From NCBI GenBank assembly GCA_903861305.1, contig CAIOTT010000025.1, positions 1-52,552 on the forward strand: DNA of 52,552 bases. The letters run 5' to 3'. This DNA is from Candidatus Omnitrophota bacterium. GTDB taxonomy: Bacteria; Omnitrophota; Gorgyraeia; Zapsychrales; Fredricksoniimonadaceae. The number at the start of each line of letters is the position of its first letter. Positions within the stretch are counted from its first letter, which is position 1. Positions 2,456-37,845 of this stretch are shown here, piece by piece. A program made the translations under genes and the position numbers. The notes under the pieces are model-generated. The model was not told where the DNA came from. It ran no database searches and saw only the letters and a program-made list of their open reading frames with translations.

Positions 2456-3310
2456 ATGGACAATAAAAAATTCTTCATCATCGGGTCCAATGGACAGCTT
2501 GCGCGTGAATTTATCCGTGTGTTCACGCAGCGCAAGATCAACTTCGCCGCGCCCGCGGAAAATATCGTGAGCCTTACGGATGCCCCGGGACTGCAGCAGG
2601 CGATCATGGCCGAGCGCCCCGATTACGTGCTCAACTGCGCGGCGTATAACAATGTCGAAGAAGCCGAGCGTAACCCTCAGGTTGCGTTTGCCGTTAACGC
2701 GGAGGCTGTTAAAAGCCTCGCCGAATTTTGCCATAACCAGAAGATCTTTTTGATCCATTTCGGTACGGATTATGTTTTTGATGGCGAGAAAAAGAATTTC
2801 TATACCGAAGAGGACGTTCCAAATCCGCTGAATCAGTACGGCCAGAGCAAATTGCAGGGCGAACTCCATGTTCAAAAGATCATGACAGACTATCTGATCT
2901 TCCGTCTTAGCTGGGTCATCGGCCATGGCACGCAGAATTTTCTCTACAAGCTCAACACCTGGGCGGCGCAGAAGCCCGTGCTCCAGGTCAGCGCGGACGA
3001 GGTCTCGGTCCCGACATTTGTCGAGGATGTTGTTGAAGGTGTTCTGGCGGCCGTCTCAAAGAAATTGTCAGGCCTGTACCATCTGACCAACAGCGGCTAC
3101 GCCTCGCGCTACGAACTGGCCAAGAAGTATATCGAAGTCAGGAAGCTGAACAACCTGGTTATCCCGGTCCCGATGGATACATTCCCCTCGAATGTCCGCC
3201 GGGCCAAATTCACAGCCATGTCCAACGCAAAGCTGTCAAAAGAAGCCGGCATCATCATTCCCACATGGGGAACCGCGCTTATGAGATATATCAATCAATC
3301 TGGATCTTGA
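2456..3310 (+). CDS. rfbD: dTDP-4-dehydrorhamnose reductase
   Basis: MDNKKFFIIGSNGQLAREF..VLNCAAYNNVEEAE..GTDYVFDG; Rossmann SDR. Confidence 0.95.
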   Translation: MDNKKFFIIGSNGQLAREFIRVFTQRKINFAAPAENIVSLTDAPGLQQAIMAERPDYVLNCAAYNNVEEAERNPQVAFAVNAEAVKSLAEFCHNQKIFLIHFGTDYVFDGEKKNFYTEEDVPNPLNQYGQSKLQGELHVQKIMTDYLIFRLSWVIGHGTQNFLYKLNTWAAQKPVLQVSADEVSVPTFVEDVVEGVLAAVSKKLSGLYHLTNSGYASRYELAKKYIEVRKLNNLVIPVPMDTFPSNVRRAKFTAMSNAKLSKEAGIIIPTWGTALMRYINQSGS

Positions 3311-3311
3311 A

Positions 3312-3346
3312 GTCCCCTCCCCGCGAAGCGTGGGAGGGGGGAGGGG
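3312..3346. repeat. C/G-rich palindromic repeat family B, copy 1 (intergenic rfbD-rfbB)
   Basis: CCCCTCCC-CGC-GAA-GCG-T-GGGAGGGG followed by GGAGGGG. Confidence 0.6.
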
Positions 3347-3377
3347 CAATAAGTCCTTCCAACAAAACAGGAGTAAT

Positions 3378-4340
3378 ATGGTCTACGAAAAGAAAATTCT
3401 GGTCACCGGCGGCTGCGGCTTCATCGGCTCCAACCTTGTGCATTATCTGCTCAAGAAATACCCGACATACAAGATCGTCAACTTCGACGCGCTGACCTAC
3501 GCCGGCAATCCGGAAAACCTCCGCGACATCGAAAACAACCCCGCCTACAGCTTTGTTAAAGGCGACATACGCAATGGCAAAGACGTAGCGGCCGTCATGC
3601 CCACAGTCGACCACGTCATCCACCTCGCGGCCGAATCCCACGTGGATCGCAGCATCCAGGGCCCCGAAGAATTCGTGACCACCAATGTGCTCGGCACCCA
3701 GATCCTTCTCGACTATGCCAAGGCAAGCAATATCAAGAAGTTCGTCCATGTCTCGACCGACGAAGTGTATGGCAGTTTGGGGGCAACCGGGTATTTTACA
3801 GAACAGACCCCGCTGGCACCCAACAGCCCCTATTCCGCCAGCAAAGCCGGCAGCGACCTTATCGCCCGTTCCTATTATGAAACCTACAAGTTCCCGGTGG
3901 TCATCACCCGCTGTTCCAATAACTACGGGCCGTACCAGTACCCGGAGAAATTGATCCCCCTGATGATCCTCAACGCCCTTGAGAACAAGCCGCTGCCTGT
4001 TTATGGCGACGGCATGAACGTGCGCGACTGGTTGTATGTCGAAGACCATTGCGCGGCGATCAGCGAAGTGTTGCACAAGGGCACGGCGGGTGAGGTTTAC
4101 AACATCGGCGGCAATAACGAGTGGCACAACATTCATATTGTTAAGCTCATTCTTAAAGAACTTGGCAAGCCGGAGTCGCTCATTTCCTATGTGACCGACC
4201 GCCTGGGGCATGACCGCCGTTATGCGATCGATGCCACAAAGATCAAGAAGACGCTGGGCTGGGAGCCGTCGGTCCAGTTCGAGCAGGGGATCAAGAGGAC
4301 CATTCAGTGGTATCTGGATAATAGAAAGGCGTCATCCTGA
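3378..4340 (+). CDS. rfbB: dTDP-glucose 4,6-dehydratase
   Basis: MVYEKKILVTGGCGFIGSNLVHYLL..STDEVYGSLG..YSASKAGSD..RCSNNYGPYQYPEKLIP. Confidence 0.97.
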   Translation: MVYEKKILVTGGCGFIGSNLVHYLLKKYPTYKIVNFDALTYAGNPENLRDIENNPAYSFVKGDIRNGKDVAAVMPTVDHVIHLAAESHVDRSIQGPEEFVTTNVLGTQILLDYAKASNIKKFVHVSTDEVYGSLGATGYFTEQTPLAPNSPYSASKAGSDLIARSYYETYKFPVVITRCSNNYGPYQYPEKLIPLMILNALENKPLPVYGDGMNVRDWLYVEDHCAAISEVLHKGTAGEVYNIGGNNEWHNIHIVKLILKELGKPESLISYVTDRLGHDRRYAIDATKIKKTLGWEPSVQFEQGIKRTIQWYLDNRKASS

Positions 4341-4365
4341 AGCGACGCCGAAGGATATTAATCAT

Positions 4366-5835
4366 ATGAGCGAAGGTGAATCACTTACTCGTCAAGCTTC
4401 CCGCGGTGCGGCCTGGTCGCTGGCGAGTAATGTGGCGGTAAGCGCCATTAGTTTTATCGGCACGGCCATCCTGGCACGCATGCTCACGCCCAAGGATTTC
4501 GGGCTCATGGGCATGGCCGCGCTGGTTACGAGCATTGTAAGCTTGTTCGGCAATTTTGGGCTTGGCGCGGCGCTTGTTCAGAAGAAGGATGCGACGGAGG
4601 AGGACTTTTCGACCGCTTTCTGGGCGAATTGCGCGACGGGCGCTGCCTTGATGTTCATTTGCGTTATTGGATCGCCGTTGGCTAGCCTGTTTTTCCATGA
4701 AAAAAACGTACAGTGGATATTAATCCTATTATCTTTTAATTTCATGCTTGCGGCTCTTTGCTCTGTGCATAGCACGCGTATTTTAAAGCGTGTTCATATG
4801 AAGCCCATGGCTTTAATAGAAGTCGGCGGACGGATATTCCGGGTCGGGATCATGCTGGTAGCTGCTTTTTGCGGGATGAGTTTTTGGAGCATTGTTATCG
4901 GCATGATCGTTGAACGACTTTTTAAAACAGTTGCTTTTATAATCCTGGATCCCTGGCGGCCCGGATATATTTTTTCCATGCAAAAATTCAGGGAGATGTT
5001 CAGGTTCGGGCGCAATATCCTTGGCGGCGAGTTCCTGGCGTATCTTAACGTGAATATGGATTTTATCGTTACAGGCCGAGTGCTAGGGGCTGATCTGTTG
5101 GGATTTTACCAGATGGCCTATAATTTGCCGCATCTTCTTAAAGATTATGTGAGCGGCAGTATTGGAACCGTGGCTTTCCCCGTTTTTTGCAAGGTACAGG
5201 ATGATAATGACCGACTGGTGAAGGGGTACTTAAAGATCGTTAAATTCATCGCGCTGGCCACATTCCCTGTGCTTGCCGGTCTAGTATTCACTGCGCATGA
5301 TTTTATATTCGTGGCTTATGGTGAGCGGTGGCTCCCGGCTGTGGTGCCGCTGCAAATACTTTGTTTCTGCGCGGCATTTGCGTCGGTAAATTCTATTGTT
5401 GGTTTTCTTTTGTATGCAAAAGGAAGGCCGGATCTAGGTTTCAAATGGGAGTGTGTGCGGCTGCCGGCAACAATTATTGCGATCCTTATTGGTGTGCATT
5501 TTGGTGGGATTGTCGGTGTCGCCTGGGGGATGCTTGTTATTGAATTTTTCTCCATAGTAATGGTGTGGCTTATCTTCCGGATCCTGAATAACAGTTTCAG
5601 CCGATATTGGAGTGCGATCCTGCCGGCAACTGTTGCGTGTGGGGTTATGACAGGGGCACTTGTAAGCATCAATGGCATTCACCTTATAAATGGGATGACG
5701 CCATGGCTTCGATTGATCACCGAGTTTGTTGTTGGCACGGGAATCTATGTTTTAGTGATTGTTTTTGGGTTTAAGACGGTATTCAAGGAGGCTGTTGATT
5801 TTGTAAAACATTCTTCAGGTCGGACAAGCCAATAG
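4366..5835 (+). CDS. Polysaccharide flippase, MOP/Wzx family
   Basis: Multi-TM, SLTRQASRGAAWSLASNVAVSAISFIGTAILARMLTPKDFGLMGMAALV; EPS context. Confidence 0.9.
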   Translation: MSEGESLTRQASRGAAWSLASNVAVSAISFIGTAILARMLTPKDFGLMGMAALVTSIVSLFGNFGLGAALVQKKDATEEDFSTAFWANCATGAALMFICVIGSPLASLFFHEKNVQWILILLSFNFMLAALCSVHSTRILKRVHMKPMALIEVGGRIFRVGIMLVAAFCGMSFWSIVIGMIVERLFKTVAFIILDPWRPGYIFSMQKFREMFRFGRNILGGEFLAYLNVNMDFIVTGRVLGADLLGFYQMAYNLPHLLKDYVSGSIGTVAFPVFCKVQDDNDRLVKGYLKIVKFIALATFPVLAGLVFTAHDFIFVAYGERWLPAVVPLQILCFCAAFASVNSIVGFLLYAKGRPDLGFKWECVRLPATIIAILIGVHFGGIVGVAWGMLVIEFFSIVMVWLIFRILNNSFSRYWSAILPATVACGVMTGALVSINGIHLINGMTPWLRLITEFVVGTGIYVLVIVFGFKTVFKEAVDFVKHSSGRTSQ

Positions 5836-15967: not shown

Positions 15968-17650
15968 ATGTGCGGTATTAGCGGCTTCAATTGGGAAGAC
16001 AACAGTTTGATAGGTCAGATGAACGCGGCGATCAAGCACCGCGGGCCTGACGATGACGGGATCCGTGTCGGCCACGGCCTGTCGCTCGGCCATGTCCGCC
16101 TGTCGATATTTGACCTCTCCGCGCGCGGGCATCAGCCCATGCCCAACCAGGATGAGACGATCTGGATCGTTTATAACGGCGAGATCTATAACTTCAGGGA
16201 GATCAGGGATGATCTCAAGAACAAGGGCTATCAATTCCGTTCTGAATCAGACACAGAAGTTATCATTTACGCCTACCAGGAATATGGAACGGCCGCGTTC
16301 GAGAAGTTCAACGGCATCTTTGCGTTTGCTTTGCTCGACGTGAAGAAGGATTCCCTGTTTTTGGTGCGCGATCGCCTGGGGGTCAAGCCGCTGTATTATT
16401 ACGCGGATGGGAAAAAGTTGATATTTTCCTCTGAAATGAAAGCTCTGGTGCCGCACCACCTGGAGCTTCACAAAGATGAATTGAGTCTTGAAGAATACTT
16501 GCAAACCAACAATATTTCATCCGAAAGTTTCTGGCGTGAAGTTAAAGCGGTCCAGCCCGGTACATTTTTATGCCTGGACCTCAAGAAGCGGCATATGCTG
16601 GCCACGCACTATTGCCGTATCCAGGACCGGGTGGATGCCGTCAGGTACAAAAGGAACAGTCAAACTTCCGAGCGTCAGCTTGTGGATGAGCTGGACAAAT
16701 TGCTTCATGAAGTGGTCAAAGACCAGCTTTTATCGGATGCACCGCTCGGCACGATCTGCTCCGGCGGCCTGGATTCTTCACTGCTGACGGCTGTTGCGGC
16801 CCGGTATAAAAAAGACCTCAAGATCTTCAATGTCAAGGTAACTGAGTCGCTGTATGATGAATCGCCGTTCGCCCAAAGAGTGGCGGATTTTCTGAAGCTT
16901 GAGCTCACCCAGGCGGTCCTGGACAAGAAAAAGTATCTGGAACTTTACGAGCAATGTGTCGTGCAAGAAGAACTGCCGCTGGTCCATCCGAATTCTGTCG
17001 GAATATTTCTCGTCAGTAAAAAGGCCAGGGAGGCCGGGTTAAGCGTTCTTTTGAGCGGCGAAGGCGCGGATGAATTGCTGGGCGGCTATCATCATCACAT
17101 GGCGTATAAAAAGCGCTTGATCCTGGAGCAGTTCCCGCTCCTCAAGTTCCTCAAGCCCAGGCATGATGCTTATCTCGATGGTAAAGAAACGCCTTTTAGT
17201 GTTTACGAACAAGGGTATGCCGCGGAGCCGCACTTTGATAAATCCTACATGAAGGCCCGCTGGCGTTCTCTCGGCAGGTTTTATCGCGGCTATGACGTTA
17301 CGGCCAACAACAGGCAACGGCGGCTAAAAACTTTCATAGCACATGACTTGAATTATTATTTGACCCAGATCCTCAGGCGCACAGACCGTATGTCCATGGC
17401 GGTCGGACTGGAAATGCGCGTGCCCTACCTGGACAATCGCCTGGTCGATTTTTCATTGAATATACCGGTCAAATATCAGATCAAACTCCTGCAAAGCAAG
17501 TATATCCTGAAGAAAGTCGCGGAACGCTATTTGCCCAAAGATATTGTGTATCGGTCCAAAAAGGGATTTCCTTTGCCAGTAGACCAGTGGCTGGATGGGA
17601 AGAATTTCCAGGATGTTATGCTGCAAGCCTGGGAAAGGAAAAATTCATAA
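15968..17650 (+). CDS. asnB: Asparagine synthase (glutamine-hydrolysing)-type amidotransferase
   Basis: MCGISGFNWED N-terminal Cys; IKHRGPDDDG; SGGLDSSLL; LSGEGADELLGGYHHH. Confidence 0.93.
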   Translation: MCGISGFNWEDNSLIGQMNAAIKHRGPDDDGIRVGHGLSLGHVRLSIFDLSARGHQPMPNQDETIWIVYNGEIYNFREIRDDLKNKGYQFRSESDTEVIIYAYQEYGTAAFEKFNGIFAFALLDVKKDSLFLVRDRLGVKPLYYYADGKKLIFSSEMKALVPHHLELHKDELSLEEYLQTNNISSESFWREVKAVQPGTFLCLDLKKRHMLATHYCRIQDRVDAVRYKRNSQTSERQLVDELDKLLHEVVKDQLLSDAPLGTICSGGLDSSLLTAVAARYKKDLKIFNVKVTESLYDESPFAQRVADFLKLELTQAVLDKKKYLELYEQCVVQEELPLVHPNSVGIFLVSKKAREAGLSVLLSGEGADELLGGYHHHMAYKKRLILEQFPLLKFLKPRHDAYLDGKETPFSVYEQGYAAEPHFDKSYMKARWRSLGRFYRGYDVTANNRQRRLKTFIAHDLNYYLTQILRRTDRMSMAVGLEMRVPYLDNRLVDFSLNIPVKYQIKLLQSKYILKKVAERYLPKDIVYRSKKGFPLPVDQWLDGKNFQDVMLQAWERKNS

Positions 17651-17651
17651 T

Positions 17652-18998
17652 ATGCACATGAAATTATTCATGCTCATCAATTTTGTCTATGAAACCGCGA
17701 TCAAGCGGCGGAAAATGCTTGAATACCGCGCTTTTCTTGACAAAAGCCAGTGGTGGCCGCCTGAAGATCATCGGATGCATCAACTGAAGAACGTTCAGCG
17801 GTTGGTGGCGCATGCGTTCGAGCATGTCCCTTATTGGCGGGAGACGTCCCAACGTCTTGGGTTGACACACCAGGATATAAAATCCCTGGATGATATCCGG
17901 AAATTACCGATCATTGATAAAAAAGATATCCGTGCCAATAAGGACCGGATGATCGCAGATAACTGGCGGGGGAAGACCTGGTCAAAGTCCACCGGCGGTT
18001 CGACGGGAATACCACTGCATCTTGATTACACGCCGGATAGTTATGACTGGCGCATGGCCATATCGCAAAGAGGCTATGGCTGGGCCAAATGTGAGCCGGG
18101 GCGCAAGGTAGGGTATTTGTGGAGTGTTGCTATCGGCGAAGAAACGTTCTTTCATAAGATTAAAGCCACGCTGCACGACATGTTGCTGGGGCGCAAGATG
18201 TTTAATTTGTTCCGGTTGGACAGTAAATTAATGGACAGATGTGTTCAGTACATTAACCGAGCGCGGCCTGAAGGCATGATCGGATATACGACCGCTTTGT
18301 ATGCTTTTGCCAAGTATGTTAAGCAGAATCATATAAAACTGCTTTCCGTACCGGCGGTCGTAACGGGTGCCGAAAGGCTTTATCCCTACCAGCGTGAATT
18401 GATCGAGGAGGTGTTGGGGGCGAAAGTATTTAATTCGTATGGCTGCCGGGAGTTCATGCTCATCGCGAGTGAGTGCGACAGGCACGAGGGGCTCCATGTG
18501 AGCGCCGAGAATCTCCTGGTTGAGTTGCTGAAGGATGGCGAGCCTGTCCGGCCTGGGGAGATCGGCGAAGTTGTTGTCACGGACCTGCATAATTACGGGA
18601 TGCCTTTCATAAGGTACCGGACCGGTGATCTCGCGGTCAAGAGTGAAAGATTGTGTTCCTGCGGGCGGGGCTTGCCCCTGATCGATGATGTCGAAGGCCG
18701 CACGCTCGATACCATCCGGGCCTGTGACGGGCGCATGATCTCCGGGGTTTTCTTCCCGCATCTCATGAAAGAACTCAAGGGGATCGAGAGATTCCAGGTC
18801 ATCCAGGACAAGCCGGATCATTTGGAAATAAAGATCATCAGGAATGATCTGTTCACCGATGCTGAACTTCAATTCATGAAGAATGAGATCTTAAAGACTG
18901 TCGGTGCTGAAATGAGGATCGACCTCACGTATGTGGACGACATCCTGTTAACGGCGACCGGAAAATTCCGTGTAACTATTTCACAGTTGGAACAATGA
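17652..18998 (+). CDS. Phenylacetate-CoA ligase/CapK-like adenylate-forming enzyme
   Basis: WSKSTGGSTGIPLHLDYT P-loop; VTGAERLYPYQRELIEEVLGAKVFNSYGCREF; FIRYRTGDLAV. Confidence 0.9.
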   Translation: MHMKLFMLINFVYETAIKRRKMLEYRAFLDKSQWWPPEDHRMHQLKNVQRLVAHAFEHVPYWRETSQRLGLTHQDIKSLDDIRKLPIIDKKDIRANKDRMIADNWRGKTWSKSTGGSTGIPLHLDYTPDSYDWRMAISQRGYGWAKCEPGRKVGYLWSVAIGEETFFHKIKATLHDMLLGRKMFNLFRLDSKLMDRCVQYINRARPEGMIGYTTALYAFAKYVKQNHIKLLSVPAVVTGAERLYPYQRELIEEVLGAKVFNSYGCREFMLIASECDRHEGLHVSAENLLVELLKDGEPVRPGEIGEVVVTDLHNYGMPFIRYRTGDLAVKSERLCSCGRGLPLIDDVEGRTLDTIRACDGRMISGVFFPHLMKELKGIERFQVIQDKPDHLEIKIIRNDLFTDAELQFMKNEILKTVGAEMRIDLTYVDDILLTATGKFRVTISQLEQ

Positions 18999-20065
18999 AG
19001 ATCATACAGATCGTCAATAATCTCGACTGCGGCGGGCAGGAAAAAATGATCATCAGCCTCGCTGTGTCATTAAAAGCCAAAGGCCATGAGACCCAGATCG
19101 TGTGCATTGCCAATAAGGGCGAGCTTTCGGTGCAGGCAGAGCGTGCCGGGATAAAGGTCGAGTCTATAGATCAAAAGCAGGGGTTTCTGTTAATAGCGGT
19201 GTGGAAATTATGTAAAGTCCTGTGGTCCAGGAAGCCGGATCTGCTTCATTTGCACAATTCACGTGCTTTGATCTATGGAGCTATTGCGGCAAGGATTCTA
19301 AATATTCCCTGTATCTTTACACGTCACGGCAGTCGGAAGATAGCCGCTCCCAAATGGATATGGGATGGCCTTAAAAGCATTATTGTCATTTCTGTTCAGG
19401 CCAGGCTTGACTTGATAAAACAAAATCCCTGTTTGAAAAGCGACGATATTTCGGTCATTTTGAACGGTGTCAATATCAGGGAGTATGTGGCCGCTCCGGC
19501 ACGCGGCAAAGATGATCCGGGTGTTGTGACGATCGGTCACGTTGCCCGGCTTTCGCCGGAAAAAGATCAAATGACCCTCTTGAAGAGCTTCGCGAGAGTG
19601 GCGGAGGTCTTGGGGCAACAGAAAGTACGGCTGGTGATCGCCGGCGATGGCGCCTCAAGGGCCATGCTCGAAAGAGCGGCGCAGGATCTTGGCATAGCCG
19701 CGCGCGTTGAGTTTTTGGGATTCCGTGAAGATATACCAGCGATCGTGAACACGTTTGATGTATTTGTGCTTTCATCCTTGACCGAAGGGATCTCGTTGAC
19801 ACTTTTGGAAGCGATGGCCGCGTCAAAGCCGATCGTGGCAACCGATGTCGGCGGTAATCCTGAAGTTGTGGTCAGCGGCACGACGGGTTTTCTTGTACCG
19901 GCGAAAGATCCCCAGGCCATGGCTGACAAGATACTGGTTCTTTTAAAAGATCCACGGCTTGCAAAAAACATGGGTGCGGCCGGACGCAAGCATGCGGAAG
20001 AGGTTTTTAGTCTGGACCGCATGACCGATGATTATATCAAAGTTTATCGATCGGTCCTGGGATGA
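18995..20065 (+). CDS. Glycosyltransferase family 4
   Basis: MKIIQIVNNLDCGGQEKMIISLA..GHVARLSPEKDQMTLL..VFVLSSLTEGISLTLLEAMAASKPIVATDVGGNPEVV. Confidence 0.95.
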   Translation: MKIIQIVNNLDCGGQEKMIISLAVSLKAKGHETQIVCIANKGELSVQAERAGIKVESIDQKQGFLLIAVWKLCKVLWSRKPDLLHLHNSRALIYGAIAARILNIPCIFTRHGSRKIAAPKWIWDGLKSIIVISVQARLDLIKQNPCLKSDDISVILNGVNIREYVAAPARGKDDPGVVTIGHVARLSPEKDQMTLLKSFARVAEVLGQQKVRLVIAGDGASRAMLERAAQDLGIAARVEFLGFREDIPAIVNTFDVFVLSSLTEGISLTLLEAMAASKPIVATDVGGNPEVVVSGTTGFLVPAKDPQAMADKILVLLKDPRLAKNMGAAGRKHAEEVFSLDRMTDDYIKVYRSVLG

Positions 20066-20082: not shown

Positions 20083-20379
20083 ATGGAATCATCTGAAAAA
20101 ATGCTGAACACGATCTACGGCGCCATCGACGATTACAACATGGACATGCCGCCTTCCGACCAGCTGGACAAGTCTCCGGACACCATCCTGTTCGCAGACG
20201 GCGGCAAGCTGGATTCCGTGGGGTTCATCACGATGAGCACGGCGATCGAAGCCCGGATGCAGAAAGATCTTGGCGTTGTTCTTCCTGTTTTTACCCAGGA
20301 AGCTTCGTTGCGCCCGGATAAGCCCCTGGCTACGGTACGTTCGCTGGCGCTCTATCTGGCCCAAAAGATCGGGAGCTAA
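20083..20379 (+). CDS. Acyl carrier protein-like
   Basis: 98 aa with GGKLDSVGFITM (phosphopantetheine DS motif), directly upstream of a KASIII. Confidence 0.8.
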   Translation: MESSEKMLNTIYGAIDDYNMDMPPSDQLDKSPDTILFADGGKLDSVGFITMSTAIEARMQKDLGVVLPVFTQEASLRPDKPLATVRSLALYLAQKIGS

Positions 20380-20385
20380 AAAGAT

Positions 20386-21405
20386 ATGTATCCGCAACCA
20401 CTTCTTATAGACAGGATCGCGTGCCACTTGCCGCAGAAAGCTGTCACAAATGACGAGCTCGCGCGGGAAAACCCTTCCTGGATCATGGAAAAAGCTTTTA
20501 AAAGCACAGGGGTAAGCCTCCGCTTCGTGGCCGGGGCTGATGAAACCGCACTCGATCTTGCCCTGGCGGCGTGCCGGGAACTTTTTAAAGATCCCCAGCC
20601 GTTGTCCACGATCGATGCACTGATCTTTTGCACACAGTCACCGGATCATATCATGCCCTCCAATGCCTTTCTTCTTCATAAGGCGCTGGGGCTTTCCGAG
20701 GCGTGCCTGGCGTTCGATTACAATCTGTCGTGTTCGGGGTTCGTGTACGGCCTTGCGATCGCCCAGGGGTTTTTGTCCGCGGGCCTTGCCCGGAATATCC
20801 TGCTGGTGACAGCGGATACCTACACCAAATTGATCCACCCCCAGGACCGGTCGGCGCGATTGCTTTTCGGAGATGGCGCCGCGGCCACGCTTTTGACTGC
20901 TGAAAAAGGTTCTTTGCGACTGCTCGACATGGCTTGCGGCACGTCAGGCCAGCATTATGACAAATTCATCATCCCGGCCGGCGGGGCGCGGACACTGCGG
21001 ACGCCTGAAGCGGAACGTCCGATCACCGATACGAGCGGCAATGTGAGGTCCTTGTGCCACATTAATATGGATGGCATGGGCATCCTTTCTTTTGTGAATT
21101 CCAAGGTCCCGGACCATGTCCGTCAGGTCCTTGGCCGCAATGCGTTGACGGTAGATGATGTCTCGCTTTTTGTGTTCCATCAGGCCAGCCGCACCGCGCT
21201 TGATTCATTGACGCGCCTGCTGGGGCTGCCGAAAGAAAAAGTTTTCTCAAATCTTGAGATGGTCGGCAACACCGTGTCGAGTTCTATACCGATAGCGCTC
21301 AAAGAAGCCCTTGATGCGAACCGGGTCAAGAAGGGTGACAAAGTTGTTCTCTGCGGGTTTGGTGTCGGGCTTTCCTGGGGGACGGCCCTTATGGAGGCGG
21401 TATAA
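20386..21405 (+). CDS. 3-oxoacyl-ACP synthase III (FabH-like)
   Basis: Catalytic Cys NLSCSGFVYGL; FHQAS His; VGNTVSSSIPI Asn; FGDGAAATLL. Confidence 0.92.
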   Translation: MYPQPLLIDRIACHLPQKAVTNDELARENPSWIMEKAFKSTGVSLRFVAGADETALDLALAACRELFKDPQPLSTIDALIFCTQSPDHIMPSNAFLLHKALGLSEACLAFDYNLSCSGFVYGLAIAQGFLSAGLARNILLVTADTYTKLIHPQDRSARLLFGDGAAATLLTAEKGSLRLLDMACGTSGQHYDKFIIPAGGARTLRTPEAERPITDTSGNVRSLCHINMDGMGILSFVNSKVPDHVRQVLGRNALTVDDVSLFVFHQASRTALDSLTRLLGLPKEKVFSNLEMVGNTVSSSIPIALKEALDANRVKKGDKVVLCGFGVGLSWGTALMEAV

Positions 21406-21419
21406 CAGCAGAGCATAGT

Positions 21420-22190
21420 TTGCCTGTTCGGGAATCAGAATTTTACTGCGGTGACAAAGCCCTTTATGTCACGATGTATGACAGCGGCTCGTCCCGCTGG
21501 CTTGTCATGGCCCCGCCTTTATTCGAGGAGCTCGCGCGGACAAGGAAATTTTGCGTGAACGCGGCGCGCAAGATCGCCCGCGCTGGGTTCAACGTTGTAC
21601 GTTTTGATTACTACGGCACAGGCCTCAGTGAAGGCAAGTTTGAGGACTTTACCCTGTCACAGGCAGCGTGCGACCTTGACACTGTGATCGCAATGTGCCG
21701 GGAACGCGGGGCGGCGCAGGTGTCTTGCCTCGGGTTCAGGTTCGGCGCGTATCTCGCGGCCTTGCGCAACAGCAAAGATGGCGTCGGGCGGGTCATTGTC
21801 TGGGAGCCGGTGTTCGATCTTGCAGCGTATATCACGGAGGTTTTAAAGGCAACGGCTGTGGACCAGATCGTAACGTATGGCGCCATTCGTTTTGACCAGG
21901 CCGCGCTGATGGACAAGCTTGCGCGTGAAGGCCGGATCCTTGTGAATGGCTACGCGCTCAGCCTTGCGGCGGTAGAAGGGTTCCGCAACGCGCGCCCCAT
22001 CGAGCGCGCTGATTGTCAGAATATCGGTGTTGTGCTCTGGCGCCGGAGCAGTTTGAATAAAACGCCGTTCCTCGCGGAGCTTCAGCCCGTGGTGTGCACA
22101 ACGGTGAAGGCGGCGTGGGACCACATTAAATTCCTGGACCATGAGACGGGTGAACTTGTCGAAAGCACGCTCGGGTTATTGAAATGCTAA
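21420..22190 (+). CDS. Alpha/beta-hydrolase fold protein with GFRFG in place of GxSxG (resembles exosortase-associated hydrolase 2)
   Basis: VVRFDYYGTGLSEGKFEDF; CLGFRFGAYLAALR nucleophile elbow with Arg; TTG start uncertain. Confidence 0.8.
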   Translation: MPVRESEFYCGDKALYVTMYDSGSSRWLVMAPPLFEELARTRKFCVNAARKIARAGFNVVRFDYYGTGLSEGKFEDFTLSQAACDLDTVIAMCRERGAAQVSCLGFRFGAYLAALRNSKDGVGRVIVWEPVFDLAAYITEVLKATAVDQIVTYGAIRFDQAALMDKLAREGRILVNGYALSLAAVEGFRNARPIERADCQNIGVVLWRRSSLNKTPFLAELQPVVCTTVKAAWDHIKFLDHETGELVESTLGLLKC

Positions 22191-22197
22191 GGAATAT

Positions 22198-23058
22198 ATG
22201 AAAAGGACAACCGTTACATTTCCCAACAAGGAAGGGCTGAGCATCAAGGGTATTGTTTTTGAACCCGATGATGCCAGGCGCCGCAAGACGGGTGTGGTGT
22301 ATCTGCCGGGAATTGTCCTGGGGCTTACCGCGGTTCATCGCCTGGCTGTTGACGTTGCCTGCGAATTCCAGCGTGAAGGTTACCCCGTCCTTCTTTTTGA
22401 CCACTCACGCATTGGTGAGAGTGAAGGCGACCTTGTTTCAGGCCCCCATGAGGAATTTGTCACATTTATCAAGCAGGGAGGGCTGGTGGACGACACGCTC
22501 GTAGCCATGCAGTTCTTCTTGTCCCGCTGCGGCCTGGACAACATTATTCTTATCGGGCACTGCGGCGGCGCGCTCACCGCGGTTTATGTGGCTCAAAAGA
22601 GCAACAAGCTCGCCCAATTGATCCTCATCGTCCCGCCGTTGACGGGTGAGCCTTCCGAGGGCGCGGGCATGACGCAGGGCGAGGCCAAGGAATATCTGGC
22701 GCTTTATAAGAACAAGATGTTCTCGTTCGGCGCCTGGTCCCGGTTGTTTCTTGGCAAAAGCGACTATCGTCAGATGATCAAGGCCGTCAAGGCAAAGATC
22801 TTCAGGAAGAAGCCAGAGATAAGGTCCGGTGACGCCAATTTGAACAGGTCCTTTATCCAGGGGCTTGAGTCCGTCGGCGGCATGATGGATGTGAAAATTA
22901 TTTACGGCGACAAGGACCCTGAATTTGATGAATTTAAGGGCTGCCGGAATGAATTCAGCCGCTGGAAGATCCGGACAACCGTGTTCCCGGACGCCTCGCA
23001 TGGTTTTGTGACAGATGAGAGCATGCGCCTGTTGATGGAAGAATTGAAGGCGGCCTGA
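22198..23058 (+). CDS. Alpha/beta-hydrolase with Cys nucleophile elbow (resembles exosortase-associated hydrolase 1)
   Basis: LLFDHSRIGESEGD; LIGHCGGALTAVYV; IIYGDKDPEF; DASHGFVTDES. Confidence 0.82.
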   Translation: MKRTTVTFPNKEGLSIKGIVFEPDDARRRKTGVVYLPGIVLGLTAVHRLAVDVACEFQREGYPVLLFDHSRIGESEGDLVSGPHEEFVTFIKQGGLVDDTLVAMQFFLSRCGLDNIILIGHCGGALTAVYVAQKSNKLAQLILIVPPLTGEPSEGAGMTQGEAKEYLALYKNKMFSFGAWSRLFLGKSDYRQMIKAVKAKIFRKKPEIRSGDANLNRSFIQGLESVGGMMDVKIIYGDKDPEFDEFKGCRNEFSRWKIRTTVFPDASHGFVTDESMRLLMEELKAA

Positions 23059-27401: not shown

Positions 27402-29468
27402 ATGCCAGCTGATTTTCGTCCATTCAAAGTCGCTATTGTCGGGTGCGGGAATATTGCCAAGGTCCACGCGCGGATCCTGAAAAAGTATATCCACATCGAC
27501 AACCTGGCTATCTGTGATCTTGATCTTCTGAGGCTGGAGGAGTTTGCCAAGGCATCAGGTATCAGGAACAAATTCAATTCACTGGACGCGTTGCTGGAGG
27601 GGTTCAAGCCGCAGATCGTCCATATCGTAACGCCGCCGTCCTCGCACACCCCGATCGCGGTCCAGTGTTTGAAAAAGAACGTGAATGTGCTTATCGAAAA
27701 GCCCATGTGCCTGACGCTGGATGAAGCCCGCCAGATCATGGCGGCCGAGGCCGGGAGCAAAGCCAAAGTATGCGTTGATCACATGCGCTCGTTCGACCCG
27801 ATGATCAAGCAGGCCCTAAAGATCCTGGCGGATGAAAATTACGGTCGCATCGTCAACATCAACATGACGTACACCTATGATTACCTGCAACGCATCCATT
27901 TTGACCCGGCGGCACGCTGGATCAAGAACCTTCCCGGCGGGTGCTTCTTTGACCTTTTGCCGCATATGCTCTGCCTCCTCAACGATTTCGCGCCTGGTTC
28001 CGTGTTGAGATCGAAGCTGATCCGGAAGAACGCGGACGGGCTGGTGGAGGATCTGTGGTGCTTGTTCGAATCACCCTCGACGACCGCATCCGTCCACCTG
28101 TCATTGAATATCACGCCGCTGAAGAACCTCATCGAATTTGAGTGTGAAAAGGGTTCCTTGACGGTCGATCTCAGGAATTTCATTTTGCTGGAACGGAAAA
28201 ACAACGGGCTGCCGAACGCGATCGAAAGGATCTCCGGGAACATGGCTGTCGGTTCCCAGTACCTGGGCCGGACAGTCGGCGTTGTCGGGAAGTTCCTGTT
28301 GAACAAACTGGATCCTTACGCGGGCCTGGAGTACTTGACCAGGACGTTCATGGACGCGGTCGCGCAAGATACACCCAACCCCTCAGGGGCTAAAGACGCC
28401 CGGGATGTTTTGAAGTTGACCCTTGATATTTTTGACGGGGATGCTGTCCCCCTCGTGAAAGAGGAGCGCAAGGCACTGGCTCCGGCGGATGTCCTGGTGA
28501 CGGGTGGGACGGGATTTATCGGGAAGCGTCTTGTGAAAGACCTTCTGGAACAGGGGTTGAAGGTCAGGGTCTTTTCCCACCGGCATATTTCGGCGGATGA
28601 GGCCGGTGCCCTTTTCGGAAGGCCGGTGGAGATCGTCAGCGGGAATATTTATTCCCTCGAGGATGTATTATGCGCCGTTCAAGGCGTGAGGACGATCTAT
28701 CATCTCGCCGCGGCCATGAAAGGCGACTGGAATTACCATCTTGATACGACCATTACGGGAACAAAGAACATCCTCGCCGCGGTGAAACAGAACAATATCC
28801 CTCAGCTTGTGTATGTCAGCACCCTGAATGTTTATGATGCCAAACATTATCCTGAGAACAGGATTATCAATGAAGATTTTGCGTATGAACCGGCTCCGGA
28901 AAAACGCGGCGCATATTCTCACGCCAAGCTGATGGCTGAAAAGATGGTCATTGCGTTCCGTGACCAGGAGAAGGTGAACATCGCCATTGTCCGTCCGGGA
29001 CTGGTGTACGGGCCGGGCGGCCCGAAGTTTCCCGGAGATGTGGGAAGATTGATCGGCAACAGGTTCATTATTGTTTTTGGCCTGGGGGGCCGCAAGATCC
29101 CCTTCGTGCACGTGGACAACCTGGTCAGCGCGCTCACGGCGATCGGCCGCGCACCGGAACGGTCCGCGAACGGTATTTTTAATGTTGTGGATGAAGACAG
29201 GGTGTCCCAGAGGAAGTTTATCAGTGACTATAAGAAGATCACACGCCAGGGCTTGATCCCGCTGTATGTGCCACTGTTCTTTATTGCATCTGCTTTTCTT
29301 TTTCTGGAATGGACATTACTCCTGGCTTTTCGGAAAAAGGTTTTCCTTAACTACAAACTGGATGCTATCCGTAAAAGCCCTGTGCACAGCATGGCCCGGC
29401 TTAAAGCGGCGGTCGGTTGGGAGCAGAGGATCCATTTTCAGGAAGGGATCAAGGAGCTTTTACAATGA
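27402..29468 (+). CDS. Fusion: Gfo/Idh/MocA oxidoreductase (N) + NAD-dependent epimerase/dehydratase SDR (C)
   Basis: VAIVGCGNIAKVHA..VLIEKPMCLTLDEA in N-half; VLVTGGTGFIGKRLVKDLL..AYSHAKLMAEK..VRPGLVYGPGG in C-half; one uninterrupted 688-aa ORF. Confidence 0.92.
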   Translation: MPADFRPFKVAIVGCGNIAKVHARILKKYIHIDNLAICDLDLLRLEEFAKASGIRNKFNSLDALLEGFKPQIVHIVTPPSSHTPIAVQCLKKNVNVLIEKPMCLTLDEARQIMAAEAGSKAKVCVDHMRSFDPMIKQALKILADENYGRIVNINMTYTYDYLQRIHFDPAARWIKNLPGGCFFDLLPHMLCLLNDFAPGSVLRSKLIRKNADGLVEDLWCLFESPSTTASVHLSLNITPLKNLIEFECEKGSLTVDLRNFILLERKNNGLPNAIERISGNMAVGSQYLGRTVGVVGKFLLNKLDPYAGLEYLTRTFMDAVAQDTPNPSGAKDARDVLKLTLDIFDGDAVPLVKEERKALAPADVLVTGGTGFIGKRLVKDLLEQGLKVRVFSHRHISADEAGALFGRPVEIVSGNIYSLEDVLCAVQGVRTIYHLAAAMKGDWNYHLDTTITGTKNILAAVKQNNIPQLVYVSTLNVYDAKHYPENRIINEDFAYEPAPEKRGAYSHAKLMAEKMVIAFRDQEKVNIAIVRPGLVYGPGGPKFPGDVGRLIGNRFIIVFGLGGRKIPFVHVDNLVSALTAIGRAPERSANGIFNVVDEDRVSQRKFISDYKKITRQGLIPLYVPLFFIASAFLFLEWTLLLAFRKKVFLNYKLDAIRKSPVHSMARLKAAVGWEQRIHFQEGIKELLQ

Positions 29469-32541: not shown

Positions 32542-33639
32542 ATGTTGAATAATATTCATCTTTGGATCGGGGCGTATCTGCGGCAAAGGGTGACGCGATG
32601 CCCCCTCCCCCTACCTCCTCCCACAAAGGGAGGGGGATCGACGACCCACATTATTTTTTCCATCGTGGATCATTTTGAGCCGCGCTGGGGGGGTGTGGCG
32701 CGTGACACGGAGATCGAACGGACAGAACGCTTTCTTTCTTCTTATGGGGCGCTGGTCCAGAAGCACAGGGATCCATCGGGTGTTCCGCCGAAATATTCTT
32801 TTTTTTATCCGATCGACGAGTACACCAAAGAATGCGTTGATCGCGTGGCCGATTTCTGCCGCAAGGGGTTTGGCGAGGTCGAAGTTCATTTGCACCATAA
32901 GGACGACACCGAAGCCACCCTGCGCCAGAAGCTTTTGCACGCCGTTGATGTTTACACAAGCCACGGGCTTTTGAACACACATAAAAAGACCGGGCTGACG
33001 CAATATGGTTTTATTCACGGGAACTGGTCCTTGTGCAATTCCCGTGCCGACGGGAAGTGGTGCGGGGTGAACGAGGAGCTCAGGGTCCTTCGGGAGACCG
33101 GCTGTTACGCGGACTTCACATTGCCATCAGCCCCATCGGATACGCAGACGTCAAAGATCAACAGCATTTATTACGCGAAAAACACAACCGCTCCGCGATC
33201 CCATGACAGGGGCGTGGATGTTGCGGCGGGGAAGGCGCCTTCAGGGGACCTGATGATCATCCAGGGGCCGCTCATGCTCAACTGGCACGACAGGAAGATC
33301 GAGAATGGCGCCCTGATGGGCAATAACCCTGTGACGCCCCGGCGGGTCCGTCTTTGGGTGGACGCGGGCGTCCATGTGGCGGGGCGGCCGCAGTGGCTTT
33401 TTATCAAGATCCATAATCATGGGTGCCAGGGCGATCATTTGACCGACGGGTTCTTTGATGGCCTTGACCGGATGTTCACTCACCTGGAAAAAGGCTACAA
33501 TGACGGCAAGAATTTCCGGCTTCATTATGTGACATCACGGGAAATGTACAACATGATCAGGGCAGCGGAAGAGGGCAAGGACGGCGACCCGTCGCAATAT
33601 CGGGACCACGTGCTCCTGTCCAATGTAAAGAAGACTTAA
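32542..33639 (+). CDS. Conserved polysaccharide-deacetylase-like protein of EPS loci
   Basis: HIIFSIVDHFEPRWGG..VEVHLHHKDDT..YGFIHGNWSLCNS..IKIHNHGCQGDHL; family assignment tentative. Confidence 0.6.
   Translation: MLNNIHLWIGAYLRQRVTRCPLPLPPPTKGGGSTTHIIFSIVDHFEPRWGGVARDTEIERTERFLSSYGALVQKHRDPSGVPPKYSFFYPIDEYTKECVDRVADFCRKGFGEVEVHLHHKDDTEATLRQKLLHAVDVYTSHGLLNTHKKTGLTQYGFIHGNWSLCNSRADGKWCGVNEELRVLRETGCYADFTLPSAPSDTQTSKINSIYYAKNTTAPRSHDRGVDVAAGKAPSGDLMIIQGPLMLNWHDRKIENGALMGNNPVTPRRVRLWVDAGVHVAGRPQWLFIKIHNHGCQGDHLTDGFFDGLDRMFTHLEKGYNDGKNFRLHYVTSREMYNMIRAAEEGKDGDPSQYRDHVLLSNVKKT
32599..32640. repeat. C/G-rich palindromic repeat family B, copy 2 (inside CDS 32542)
   Basis: CCCCCTCCC-N18-GGGAGGGGG perfect 9-bp arms with CCTCCCAC in the loop. 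Confidence 0.6.
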
Positions 33640-35108
33640 TGTCAAACAAGCCCAATAAAATATTTGTCCCGTCTGTCCAGGTCCTGTATCTGATCTTCCT
33701 GTGCGCCTTATGGGCCATCCCTGTCTGGCCCCGGGGGCTGTGGTGGCTCTCTGACTTGATCGTGATCTTGCCGGTGTGGGTTTTGTTCATCCCTCCGGCT
33801 CTTTCTTTTTTAATGTCGATCAGGTCGAAAGACATGAAGGGGATCGTTATTAACATCATTTGTTGTGCGGTTATTTTCTTCGGCATTATGGGATATAACA
33901 TTATTTTGCCGGATATGGCGCAACCTTCCGCCACAGCCCCCTTTTCTTTAAAGGTGATCACAGCCAACATGGGTAACGTTACAAACCTGGATGATTTTTT
34001 TCGTATGGTGGCACAGGAAGATCCGGATGTGATCGTATTTCAGGAATTTTCTCCGGAGCTTCAAGAACCCTTGGACTCAGGGTTCATGGGCAGCGGATGG
34101 GATATAAAGATCGAACATGGACTGGCATTGGCAAGTCGTCTGAAGATCCGTTCCATGGATCTCAATGAGCGGCCTCCTTTTGGAGCTGGACGGGGGCGTA
34201 TGGCTACCTATGAACTGGAGACCCCGGTGGGCCTTGTTTACATTTTAGACGTGCATCTGGGGACCCTGCGCGAAGGTGTCGAGGCGGTCATGGAACGCAG
34301 TTTCGATGCCATAAAAGAAATGCAGCGGGTTACCGACCAACAGGAAAATCAATCGCTGATAGCGGCGAGTGTTGCCTGTGACTTGAAGCCTCTGATTGTA
34401 GCGGGCGATTTCAACATGCCGGAGTCAAGCCCGATCTTCAGGGCCTACTGGTCGAAGTATGGCGATGCGTTCGATGAAAAAGGCGCTGGCTTTGGGTTTA
34501 CCAAGCACACACGCTGGTATGGGGTGCGCATTGACCGTATTGTCCACGACAGGAATTGGCGGGCGTTGGAAGCCCGGGTCGGCCCGGATATCGGCAGTGA
34601 CCATTCCCCCGTCATCGCCCGCCTTGTTTTTACCGGGAAAGCAGTTCCTTTGGCTGATCCGCAGAAAACAGCCCCTAATGCGGGTGGCAAGGTTGCCGCG
34701 ATGGTGCCTCTCGCACAGATGGAGACCTCGGGGACGTTCCCTGACTGGGATTTGGAGCGATTCTCCATGATCAGTTTCGGTTATATCATCCCTCAGGGTG
34801 CGACTGTGGCCATGGGTGTCAAGACAGCCTGGGGCGACTGGATATGCCTGGGCGGCACGGGGACGGATCAATGTCCCGCGGCTACGATGGTGCCCGATAA
34901 AACAGTTTTCATTAACGATGGCATGCGGCATGCGGTCAAGATCAATGTCAGGTCAGGCGTGCAGGGCGTCCTGCCCATGGTGAAGTTGTTGACGGGATAC
35001 CAGTTCTTTGGGTCTGGCAAGCTTTCAGCCAGCAACCCGCTTGTGATAGATCATTTGAAGATTTTTGCACGAGATGGTAAGCTTAATAATTCAATGGAGG
35101 CAAAATGA
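33639..35108 (+). CDS. Endonuclease/exonuclease/phosphatase (EEP) family protein with N-terminal TMs and extra C-terminal domain
   Basis: VITANMGN; VFQEFSPE; VAGDFNMPESSP; GSDHSPVIARL; about 145 residues follow the EEP domain. Confidence 0.85.
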   Translation: MSNKPNKIFVPSVQVLYLIFLCALWAIPVWPRGLWWLSDLIVILPVWVLFIPPALSFLMSIRSKDMKGIVINIICCAVIFFGIMGYNIILPDMAQPSATAPFSLKVITANMGNVTNLDDFFRMVAQEDPDVIVFQEFSPELQEPLDSGFMGSGWDIKIEHGLALASRLKIRSMDLNERPPFGAGRGRMATYELETPVGLVYILDVHLGTLREGVEAVMERSFDAIKEMQRVTDQQENQSLIAASVACDLKPLIVAGDFNMPESSPIFRAYWSKYGDAFDEKGAGFGFTKHTRWYGVRIDRIVHDRNWRALEARVGPDIGSDHSPVIARLVFTGKAVPLADPQKTAPNAGGKVAAMVPLAQMETSGTFPDWDLERFSMISFGYIIPQGATVAMGVKTAWGDWICLGGTGTDQCPAATMVPDKTVFINDGMRHAVKINVRSGVQGVLPMVKLLTGYQFFGSGKLSASNPLVIDHLKIFARDGKLNNSMEAK

Positions 35109-35917
35109 AAAAACCAGGTGCTTTAGGATTGTGGGTGATCGCCGCGCTTGTGGTACTGGCATACATCCCTGCCTTTGACTGGATGATCAACCGCTGGTCA
35201 GCCCAGGACACCTATTACGGCCACGGGTTCCTGGTGCCGTTCATCAGTGCCTATATCGTATGGCTCAAAAGGAATAAATTAAAAGCGATCCCCCTTAACC
35301 CGACGGGCCTGGGCTGGCCGGTGCTGGTTTCGGGGGTTGTTATCTTTATGCTGAGCGCGGTCTGGCGGGTGTATTTTTCATCGGCTTTTTCACTTTTATT
35401 TGTCCTCATTGGGCTGATCCTCCTGTTCGCAGGGAAAGAGCACCTGAAAACCCTGACGTTCCCGCTGACGTTCTTGCTGTTCATGATCCCTTTGCCGCTG
35501 GTCGCCATTTCCGGGATCAGTTTCAAGCTCAAGATCCTGGCTTCGCAGATTTCAATGGTCCTCATTAATATGCTCGGTGTGCCGGCGATCCGCGAGGGCA
35601 GTGTGATCAAGACCATGCACGCGTATGTTGTTGTTGAAGACCCGTGCTCGGGCATCCGTTCGCTCATCTCCCTTATCGCGGTGGGTGCTTTGATGGCCTA
35701 TTTCAGCCGCCTGTCCAGAGTTCGAAAAACGATCCTTTTCTTGTCGTCGATCCCCATTGCGGTGGCCACGAACGTCATCCGTATCACCGTGGTTTCCCTG
35801 GCCAGTGAAATATACGGCATGGAATTCGCCACGGGCAAGTTCCATGATTTTATGGGAATGATGGTATTTGTCCTGGCGTTTTTGGGGCTGATGCTTGTGG
35901 CCAATATGCTGGAATAG
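35105..35917 (+). CDS. xrt: Exosortase (EpsH/Xrt family)
   Basis: Multi-TM; VEDPCSGIRSLISL (Cys), ATNVIRITVVS (Arg), TGKFHDFMGMMVF (His). Confidence 0.97.
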   Translation: MKKPGALGLWVIAALVVLAYIPAFDWMINRWSAQDTYYGHGFLVPFISAYIVWLKRNKLKAIPLNPTGLGWPVLVSGVVIFMLSAVWRVYFSSAFSLLFVLIGLILLFAGKEHLKTLTFPLTFLLFMIPLPLVAISGISFKLKILASQISMVLINMLGVPAIREGSVIKTMHAYVVVEDPCSGIRSLISLIAVGALMAYFSRLSRVRKTILFLSSIPIAVATNVIRITVVSLASEIYGMEFATGKFHDFMGMMVFVLAFLGLMLVANMLE

Positions 35918-35988: not shown

Positions 35989-36612
35989 ATGAACCGTTTG
36001 ACCTACACCATCGTCGTCGTGATCTTTGTTATCGCTGCTGCCGTCAGCCTTTCGTCCTATCTCCCGACACGTTTTGACACCAAAGACGCGGTGCAGGTGT
36101 CCTTTCTCCCCATGACGATCGGCTCCTGGAAGGGGAAGGATGTGCCGCTGACAAAGCGCGATTATGAGATCCTTGAAACCACGAACCTTATCATGCGCCA
36201 ATACACCAATCCGGGCGGCGGCTCCGTGCTGCTTTATATCGTTTATTCCGGGGATAACCGCAAGGTGTCGCACCCGCCGGAAGTGTGCTACATGGGCAGC
36301 GGCGCGACCATTGCGCAAAAAGCGGTCATCAATGTGACGCCGGAGATCCAGGCCAACAAGCTTGTGACGGAAATGCCGGGCGGCGGCCGTGAATTTGTGG
36401 CGTATTGGTATAAGGCCGGGGCACTGAATACCCCTAAATACTTTACCCAGCAGTTAAAGATAGCTTTTCATCGTACGTTCGGGCAAAAAACCTCGGCGGC
36501 TTTGATCCGGATCTCCACAGAGATCAAGGGTGAAAAGGAAAAAGCTGCTGAAGATCTGATCCAGAGGTTTTGCGCTCAAATGGTGCCTTTGTTGCCAAAG
36601 TACGTCCCTTAA
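35989..36612 (+). CDS. epsI: EpsI domain-containing exosortase-associated protein
   Basis: PMTIGSWKGKDVPL; YIVYSGDNRKVSHPPEVCYMGSG; after exosortase. Confidence 0.92.
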   Translation: MNRLTYTIVVVIFVIAAAVSLSSYLPTRFDTKDAVQVSFLPMTIGSWKGKDVPLTKRDYEILETTNLIMRQYTNPGGGSVLLYIVYSGDNRKVSHPPEVCYMGSGATIAQKAVINVTPEIQANKLVTEMPGGGREFVAYWYKAGALNTPKYFTQQLKIAFHRTFGQKTSAALIRISTEIKGEKEKAAEDLIQRFCAQMVPLLPKYVP

Positions 36613-36999: not shown

Positions 37000-37845
37000 A
37001 TGTCATTTTATACCATTCTTATCGGATTCTTATTGTTTTGTTCATTTCCTGTGGCTCAGGCAGGGGTGGTTGTTTCCAACCCTGATCAGGCCGTGGTGTC
37101 AATGAACAAACTGGACGACCTGAAGGTTGCGGCCTCTTCTATAGATGCTGATGCCAAAGGCCCTGTCCAACCGGTAAAATCACATGCCCCGGAGCCTTCA
37201 ACCCTGGCTTTATTGTTCAGCGGTATTTTGGGGGTTATTGTCAGGGTCGCCCGCAAGAGTTTTGCAGTATTCAAGCGCGGGATGGATTATGTGATCGCAT
37301 TATCAGTCCTTGTTTTTGCAGCGCCGTTGATGGCATTTGTTGCGCTGCTGGTCAAGGTTACTTCAGCCGGGCCTGTCATTTATAGCCAGACACGCGTTGG
37401 CAAGGGCGGCAAGACGTTCCGTATTTACAAATTCCGCACCATGCGCGTTGACGCGGAAAAAGGTACCGGCGCTGTGTGGGCCCAGAAGAACGACCCGCGC
37501 CTGACACCGATCGGCGGGTTTTTGCGCAAGTGCCATCTGGATGAACTGCCCCAGGTGTTCAATGTCCTCAAGGGCGATATGAGCATTGTCGGCCCGCGTC
37601 CTGAAAGGCCCGAGATCGTCAAGGACCTGAAACTTGTTATTTCCGATTATGACAAACGCCTGCAGATCAAGCCCGGGATCACGGGCCTGGCGCAGGTCAT
37701 GAACAGATACGACGAAACGATCTCTGATGTCCGCAAGAAGGTCAAGTATGACATTCTCTATATCAAGAAGATGTGCTGGCTGGTCGAGATGCGTGTTTTG
37801 GCGTTGACGTGCGTTGTGATGCTAACAGGTAAAGGTGCCAGATAG
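37000..37845 (+). CDS. Chimeric protein: signal peptide + internal PEP-CTERM sorting signal + polyprenyl-phosphate sugar transferase
   Basis: MSFYTILIGFLLFCSFPVAQAG; HAPEPSTLALLFSGILGVIVRVARK; then RGMDYVIALSVLVFAAPLMAFVALLVKVTSAGPVIYSQTRVGKGGKTFRIYKFRTM..CHLDELPQVFNVLKGDMSIVGPRPERPE. Confidence 0.9.
   Translation: MSFYTILIGFLLFCSFPVAQAGVVVSNPDQAVVSMNKLDDLKVAASSIDADAKGPVQPVKSHAPEPSTLALLFSGILGVIVRVARKSFAVFKRGMDYVIALSVLVFAAPLMAFVALLVKVTSAGPVIYSQTRVGKGGKTFRIYKFRTMRVDAEKGTGAVWAQKNDPRLTPIGGFLRKCHLDELPQVFNVLKGDMSIVGPRPERPEIVKDLKLVISDYDKRLQIKPGITGLAQVMNRYDETISDVRKKVKYDILYIKKMCWLVEMRVLALTCVVMLTGKGAR

Follow-up and report, generated by a model that had tools for sequence, protein, structure and literature searches.

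Tandem alpha/beta-hydrolases with arginine and cysteine elbows as a candidate carrier-protein-dependent acyl-transfer unit

The closest described relatives of the protein pair considered here are the NCBIfam families TIGR03101 and TIGR03100 (exosortase A system-associated hydrolases 2 and 1), which occur as a tandem in exopolysaccharide (EPS)/exosortase loci with an acyl carrier protein (ACP) gene directly upstream. A functional study of the pair was not found in the open-access literature, subscription papers lying mostly outside the search. The sole open-access paper found to name TIGR03100 describes Bcam1334, a TIGR03100-like protein of a B. cenocepacia exopolysaccharide cluster, as a guessed quality-control hydrolase, by analogy with AlgL, PelA and PslG (PMC3584217), and the 2006 paper on PEP-CTERM/EpsH (PMC1569441) does not mention the genes of the pair.

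NRPS/PKS thioesterase domains and the trans-acting acyltransferases GrgF and DcsB share a fold with the second member of the pair and take carrier-bound substrates. GrgF is probably a Cys-nucleophile enzyme, a property not used as evidence here. Polyhydroxyalkanoate synthase (PhaC) carries out acyl-thioester chemistry with a Cys elbow (GxCxGG), an Asp and a His, and Cys alpha/beta-hydrolases such as this one favour acyl transfer. LuxD (PF02273), another protein of acyl-ACP chemistry, keeps a catalytic Ser and works in the lux fatty-acid reductase system.

The DNA analysed (‘the window’, 52,552 nucleotides from an Omnitrophota genome) holds a long polysaccharide cluster, all on one strand, that includes an exosortase, EpsI and PEP-CTERM proteins. 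A run of genes on the + strand within it contains AsnB (15968) and the tandem hydrolases, P1 and P2; the principal features of the cluster are as follows.

17595–18998, + strand: PaaK-like AMP-forming ligase, a probable acyl-activating enzyme (DVU_1553/PaaK family matches)
18995–20065, + strand: GT4 glycosyltransferase between ligase and ACP (TIGR03088-like, 235 bits)
20083–20379, + strand: divergent ACP-like gene with Ser motif LDSVGF (hhalign/hmmsearch to carriers of related loci)
20386–21405, + strand: beta-ketoacyl-ACP synthase III (KAS III; PRK09352, 252.8 bits; Cys-His-Asn in place)
21420–22190, + strand: P1, alpha/beta-hydrolase fold, predicted non-catalytic (ORF of 256 aa, TTG start; TIGR03101-like)
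22198–23058, + strand: P2, alpha/beta-hydrolase, predicted acyltransferase/thioesterase (ORF of 286 aa, ATG start; TIGR03100-like)
35105–35917, + strand: exosortase (TIGR02602, 181.9 bits, above the cut-off of 105.55)
35989–36612, + strand: EpsI-type exosortase-associated protein (TIGR02914, 97 bits, above cut-off)

The ACP-like gene gave no match in a Pfam search. When it and its homologue from a related locus (L006) were aligned by hhalign with the carriers of related loci, probability was 85 (E 6e-6), and hmmsearch of the single sequence against a profile that excluded the window gave a weak match (E 0.016). KAS III is an extra copy, an ordinary above-cut-off fabH lying elsewhere in the genome; its nearest solved structure is 3gwa, and CorB is among its matches. 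The ACP–KAS III–P1–P2 module, with a PaaK-like ligase (E 1.5e-165 to that of the window) and a GT4 in the cluster, recurs in another Omnitrophota genus (G053).

P1 and P2 are homologous over their full length to TIGR03101 and TIGR03100, respectively, and stand in the same tandem. These families, named in the initial annotation, were indeed the top NCBIfam matches, but at scores far below both curated cut-offs (P1, 95.5 bits against 202.75; P2, 66.6 bits against 168.45). The non-Ser elbows that it ascribed to them are the rule in above-cut-off members (GLRxG and GLCDGA): P1 resembles these in its Arg elbow and adjacent TIGR03100-type partner, and P2 in its Cys elbow and His (GLCDGA ... H). Because above-cut-off members (L052, L054) carry the same Arg and Cys elbows, of GLRxG/GLCDGA type, the non-Ser state is general to the pair rather than a local loss. 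The suggested exosortase-cluster link held as regards the presence of an exosortase and of an ACP-like gene in the operon, one gene (KAS III) from the pair and thus near it as in XrtA loci. It did not hold for XrtA itself: the exosortase exceeds the generic TIGR02602 cut-off but reaches only 184.3 bits against the cut-off of 208 for exosortase A (TIGR03109), and the window locus lacks the ligase (TIGR03098) and decarboxylase (TIGR03099) of XrtA loci, both of which adjoin the pair in the control XrtA genomes G632 and G656. PaaK-like ligase and KAS III stand in their place. In a further Omnitrophota genome (G188), the genes near the pair include an ACP and a ligase similar to TIGR03098 (498.9 bits, below cut-off). 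The chemistry upstream, with KAS III and a PaaK-like ligase here and a TIGR03098-type ligase elsewhere, thus varies, the constant part of such loci being the carrier protein and the Arg/Cys pair.

Residues of particular interest in the pair are encoded at the following positions.

21528–21530, + strand: Glu37 of P1, near-invariant (47/49 pairs)
21738–21740, + strand: Arg107 of P1, codon AGG, at the nucleophile elbow (sequence, alignment)
22561–22563, + strand: Cys122 of P2, codon TGC, predicted nucleophile (sequence; alignment to solved structures)
22915–22917, + strand: Asp240 of P2, codon GAC, probable triad acid (Asp in 39/49 pairs; model)
22999–23001, + strand: His268 of P2, codon CAT, predicted catalytic His (His in 49/49 pairs; model)

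The ORF translations place Arg107 (LGFRFGA, within VSCLGFRFGAYLAA) and Cys122 (IGHCGGA, within IILIGHCGGALTAV) where a nucleophile Ser would be expected, confirming what had been read at these elbows. AlphaFold (AF2) models were built from alignments of window and related-locus sequences. In that of P1 (pLDDT 86.7, pTM 0.88), R107 sits exactly between strand 100–106 and helix 108–115; Glu37 lies in the loop after strand 3, the usual site of the oxyanion loop. His235 of P1 (AWDHIK) falls opposite the catalytic His of P2 in the alignment but is unconserved in the family, and its loop (231–241) is modelled at pLDDT <50. In the model of P2 (pLDDT 76.5, pTM 0.74), C122 lies between strand 115–121 and helix 123–134, and D240 and H268 are in loops after strands 230–237 and 259–263, respectively, so placed that the three occupy the canonical positions of nucleophile, acid and His. 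The Asp and His candidates proposed for the second hydrolase are thus retained, and R107 and C122 occupy the elbows in the single-protein models.

When the P2 profile is aligned with solved PET46/MHETase-type esterases, its Cys falls on their nucleophile Ser and its His on theirs. Foldseek neighbours of both proteins are Ser esterases and lipases, the nearest folds being those of feruloyl/cinnamoyl esterases and PET46; GrgF (6lzh) is among both sequence and fold matches of P2, and DcsB is also among its matches. With a Cys elbow and canonical Asp and His, P2 has the make-up of a Cys-nucleophile alpha/beta-hydrolase, as does PhaC, from which it differs in negligible sequence similarity and in context, PhaC lacking such a pseudo-hydrolase twin. 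P2 matches TIGR01836 only weakly (13.2 bits, E 0.033; cut-off 365.3), and membership of the PHA synthases was rejected on this ground. P1 weakly matches Pfam Acyl_transf_2, the family of LuxD (21.5 bits), and differs from LuxD in lacking the Ser. Most likely, P2 acts on acyl groups bound to a carrier, as an acyltransferase or thioesterase of Cys-Asp-His type, and P1 is a pseudo-hydrolase, a non-catalytic partner of P2 with perhaps a carrier-docking role.

Searches with family models and window proteins, of relatives, the phylum Omnitrophota, GTDB contigs, Pseudomonadota, Planctomycetota and the lineage to which one ‘Deltaproteobacteria’ MAG belongs, gathered 49 pairs from Omnitrophota, Pseudomonadota, Planctomycetota and the ‘Deltaproteobacteria’ lineage; counts refer to paired homologues and not to hydrolases at large. 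The elbow of the upstream member was R in 39, G in 10 and S in none, and the equivalent of Glu37 was kept in 47/49. Downstream members had Cys and His in 49/49 and Asp in 39/49. The Cys of the originally noted pattern is thus constant and its Arg is not strictly so, the family pattern being Arg-or-Gly plus Cys. Ser elbows that appeared when Arg-family proteins were first aligned (L013, L046, L049 and L050), and others in L110, L113, L119 and L120, belonged to unpaired proteins, read as ordinary hydrolases, and were rejected as exceptions.

The Arg/Gly member preceded the Cys member throughout, no reversed case occurring among the 49 pairs, and the ORFs usually overlapped. About 15 pairs were natural fusions (including L061, L066, L012, L014, L016 and L072–L075); L011/L085 (Bosea) appears frameshifted and was not counted. 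Constant adjacency, fixed order and natural fusion suggest that P1 and P2 may form a heterodimer. The two members also co-diverged (Mantel r 0.86), a value confounded by shared ancestry. Among fused pairs L012, L014, L016 (Bosea) and L072–L080, the first elbow was often Gly (GQGLGG) and a carrier was usually missing nearby. In two proteins of ~1110 aa, a flippase-like domain is followed by Gly-type and Cys-type hydrolase domains, a fusion that would link the pair to glycan export:

L074, 5864–9196, + strand: flippase and two-hydrolase fusion (PF13440)
L075, 6460–9813, − strand: flippase and two-hydrolase fusion (PF13440)

Evidence from the phylum of the window is thin, and the other phyla carry the argument, because a TIGR03101 scan found the pair in 3/334 Omnitrophota genomes and 55 relatives, searched with the Cys protein, yielded one further member; tblastn of plasmids gave a single weak match. 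Nor is the partnership universal, since some planctomycete Cys members (L128–L135) stand alone, no Arg partner or carrier protein being encoded close by. Members of this clade have a GxCSGGN elbow and, in most, GANHNF, and their role may differ.

Profile searches of 12–19 kb loci found an ACP or PCP within the locus in 23/25 unfused pairs, although the divergent ACPs of the window and of L071 were themselves seeds of the carrier profile behind this count. Whole genomes, by contrast, hold few PP-binding genes: matches numbered 3 in that of the window (G000, 1.7 Mb), 3 in G632 and 13 in G464. Rhizobial fusions differed, with a carrier nearby in 4/14 and absent in most. In XrtA-type loci, a carrier gene lies immediately 5′ of the Arg member (L052–L055, L057–L059, L062, L081 and L082). 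In five other loci (L008, L009, L063, L068 and L076), the protein directly 5′ of the pair is of NRPS type and ends in a PCP; a Pfam scan reported no thioesterase domain in those of L008, L009 and L063. A PCP-ending NRPS-type protein is also found upstream in L010, beyond two radical-SAM genes. In a further locus the Arg-type hydrolase is itself part of the NRPS protein:

L015, 5137–7878, + strand: fusion of an A-PCP protein and an Arg-type hydrolase, the latter exactly at the place a TE domain would occupy, with its Cys partner encoded by the gene that follows

The position of the pair in NRPS loci thus resembles that of NRPS/PKS thioesterase domains after a terminal PCP, from which it differs in comprising two separate subunits, one predicted to be dead, and in often accompanying a free-standing ACP rather than an assembly line. 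Lone Arg members (L124–L126) adjoin an ACP. A docking role for P1 is suggested because the Arg member adjoins the carrier gene, is fused behind a PCP and survives beside an ACP without a Cys partner.

Our preferred reading, held with moderate confidence, is that the pair works as an acyl-transfer unit of two components that depends on a carrier protein, with P2 catalytic and P1 a pseudo-hydrolase. The PaaK-like ligase (17595) would activate an acid, the ACP (20083) would carry the acyl group, and KAS III (20386) would possibly extend the chain or hand it over ahead of P2. Cys122, activated by His268 and Asp240, would then take an acyl, aminoacyl or peptidyl group off the phosphopantetheine of the carrier as a Cys-thioester, and P2 would pass it to an acceptor, here probably a sugar or lipid-linked exopolysaccharide precursor; release to water is a possible alternative to this transfer. 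P1 (Arg107; Gly in some relatives) would dock the carrier and/or shape the active site of P2, with no chemistry of its own. Gene context suggests acyl-ACP as the substrate of P2. Residues, fold, conservation, gene order, fusions and the setting among carrier proteins are observed, and from there on Cys catalysis, acyl transfer in preference to hydrolysis, docking by P1, the acceptor and the product are inferred. Counted against this reading are the incomplete conservation of Asp240 (39/49), the divergence of the window ACP, unrecognised by Pfam, the lack of a nearby carrier in most rhizobial fusions, and the lone Cys clade L128–L135.

Hydrolysis would be the main chemistry were P2 instead an editing (type II) thioesterase for the clearance of misloaded carriers, with P1 a decayed duplicate or mere chaperone. 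Its fold neighbours are esterases and thioesterases, a carrier-protein context suits editing and transfer equally, and the weak match of P1 is to an acyl-ACP thioesterase family, that of LuxD. We nevertheless regard editing as unlikely: an invariant Cys is unusual for plain hydrolysis, judged by what is generally known of Cys alpha/beta-hydrolases, location where TE-less NRPS lines end and fusion to a flippase suggest a product-forming step, and a conserved Arg, Glu37 and repeated fusion speak against decay of P1. It is still less probable that the pair serves as an esterase of finished polysaccharide, in deacylation or quality control, as proposed for the related gene in B. cenocepacia (PMC3584217) and as the similarity of fold to feruloyl/cinnamoyl esterases and PET46 might suggest, given that both ORFs begin directly in the fold without a signal-like segment and so look cytoplasmic, that the link to carriers and NRPS ends is constant, and that the catalytic serine is absent.

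Very little weight is given to a Claisen-type joining of two acyl chains by P2, perhaps with KAS III, in the manner of the chain fusion by GrgF (gregatin) or of the KAS III-like CorB/MxnB (pyrone antibiotics) (PMC12304814, PMC8902786): GrgF and CorB do occur among the matches of P2 and KAS III, respectively, but such matches are generic to the fold, and most related loci have an AMP ligase or NRPS and no KAS III. Equally hard to credit is the proposal that the elbow changes mark proteins that no longer act as enzymes and serve in binding, or that another residue is the nucleophile, since Cys122 and His268 show no variation in 49/49 pairs, drawn from several phyla, and have canonical geometry in the model, even if P1 has clearly lost the nucleophile and the position of its His shows no conservation.

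Beyond the window, the acyl-transfer reading admits a wider and more tentative form, to which we give rather less than even weight: that an Arg/Gly hydrolase and a Cys hydrolase make up a general ‘split thioesterase’, an enzyme of release or transfer with two subunits, so far described only as ‘hypothetical hydrolases 1 and 2’, in which the pseudo-hydrolase would recognise the carrier and the Cys hydrolase would transacylate, in exosortase-type, TE-less NRPS and flippase-linked EPS systems of at least three phyla. Hydrolases 1 and 2 have been catalogued as companions of exosortase A; the residue pattern now assigns to them a definite chemistry that can be tested, acyl transfer by Cys with the help of a dead twin, and wider sampling shows that the pair occurs independently of exosortases and accompanies carriers, including those at the ends of thioesterase-less NRPS lines. 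Were this so, it would explain the route by which ACP-made acyl or aminoacyl groups reach exopolysaccharides, and would provide a new type of release enzyme to be sought in natural-product clusters that seem to have none.

Unusual domain combinations were seen elsewhere in these clusters. A WcaJ-type sugar-phosphate transferase of the window (37000–37845, + strand) has an N-terminal extension with a signal-like start and, ahead of the catalytic domain, an internal PEP-CTERM-like stretch (APEPSTLALLFSGILGVIVRVARK), possibly a fusion of sorting signal and transferase. A 688-aa ORF (27402–29468, + strand) comprises a Gfo/Idh/MocA-type oxidoreductase half and an SDR epimerase half. Just 5′ of the ACP in L006, a 1035-aa protein (2677–5781, + strand) combines an endonuclease/exonuclease/phosphatase domain, which resembles window 33639–35108, with a GH127-like domain.
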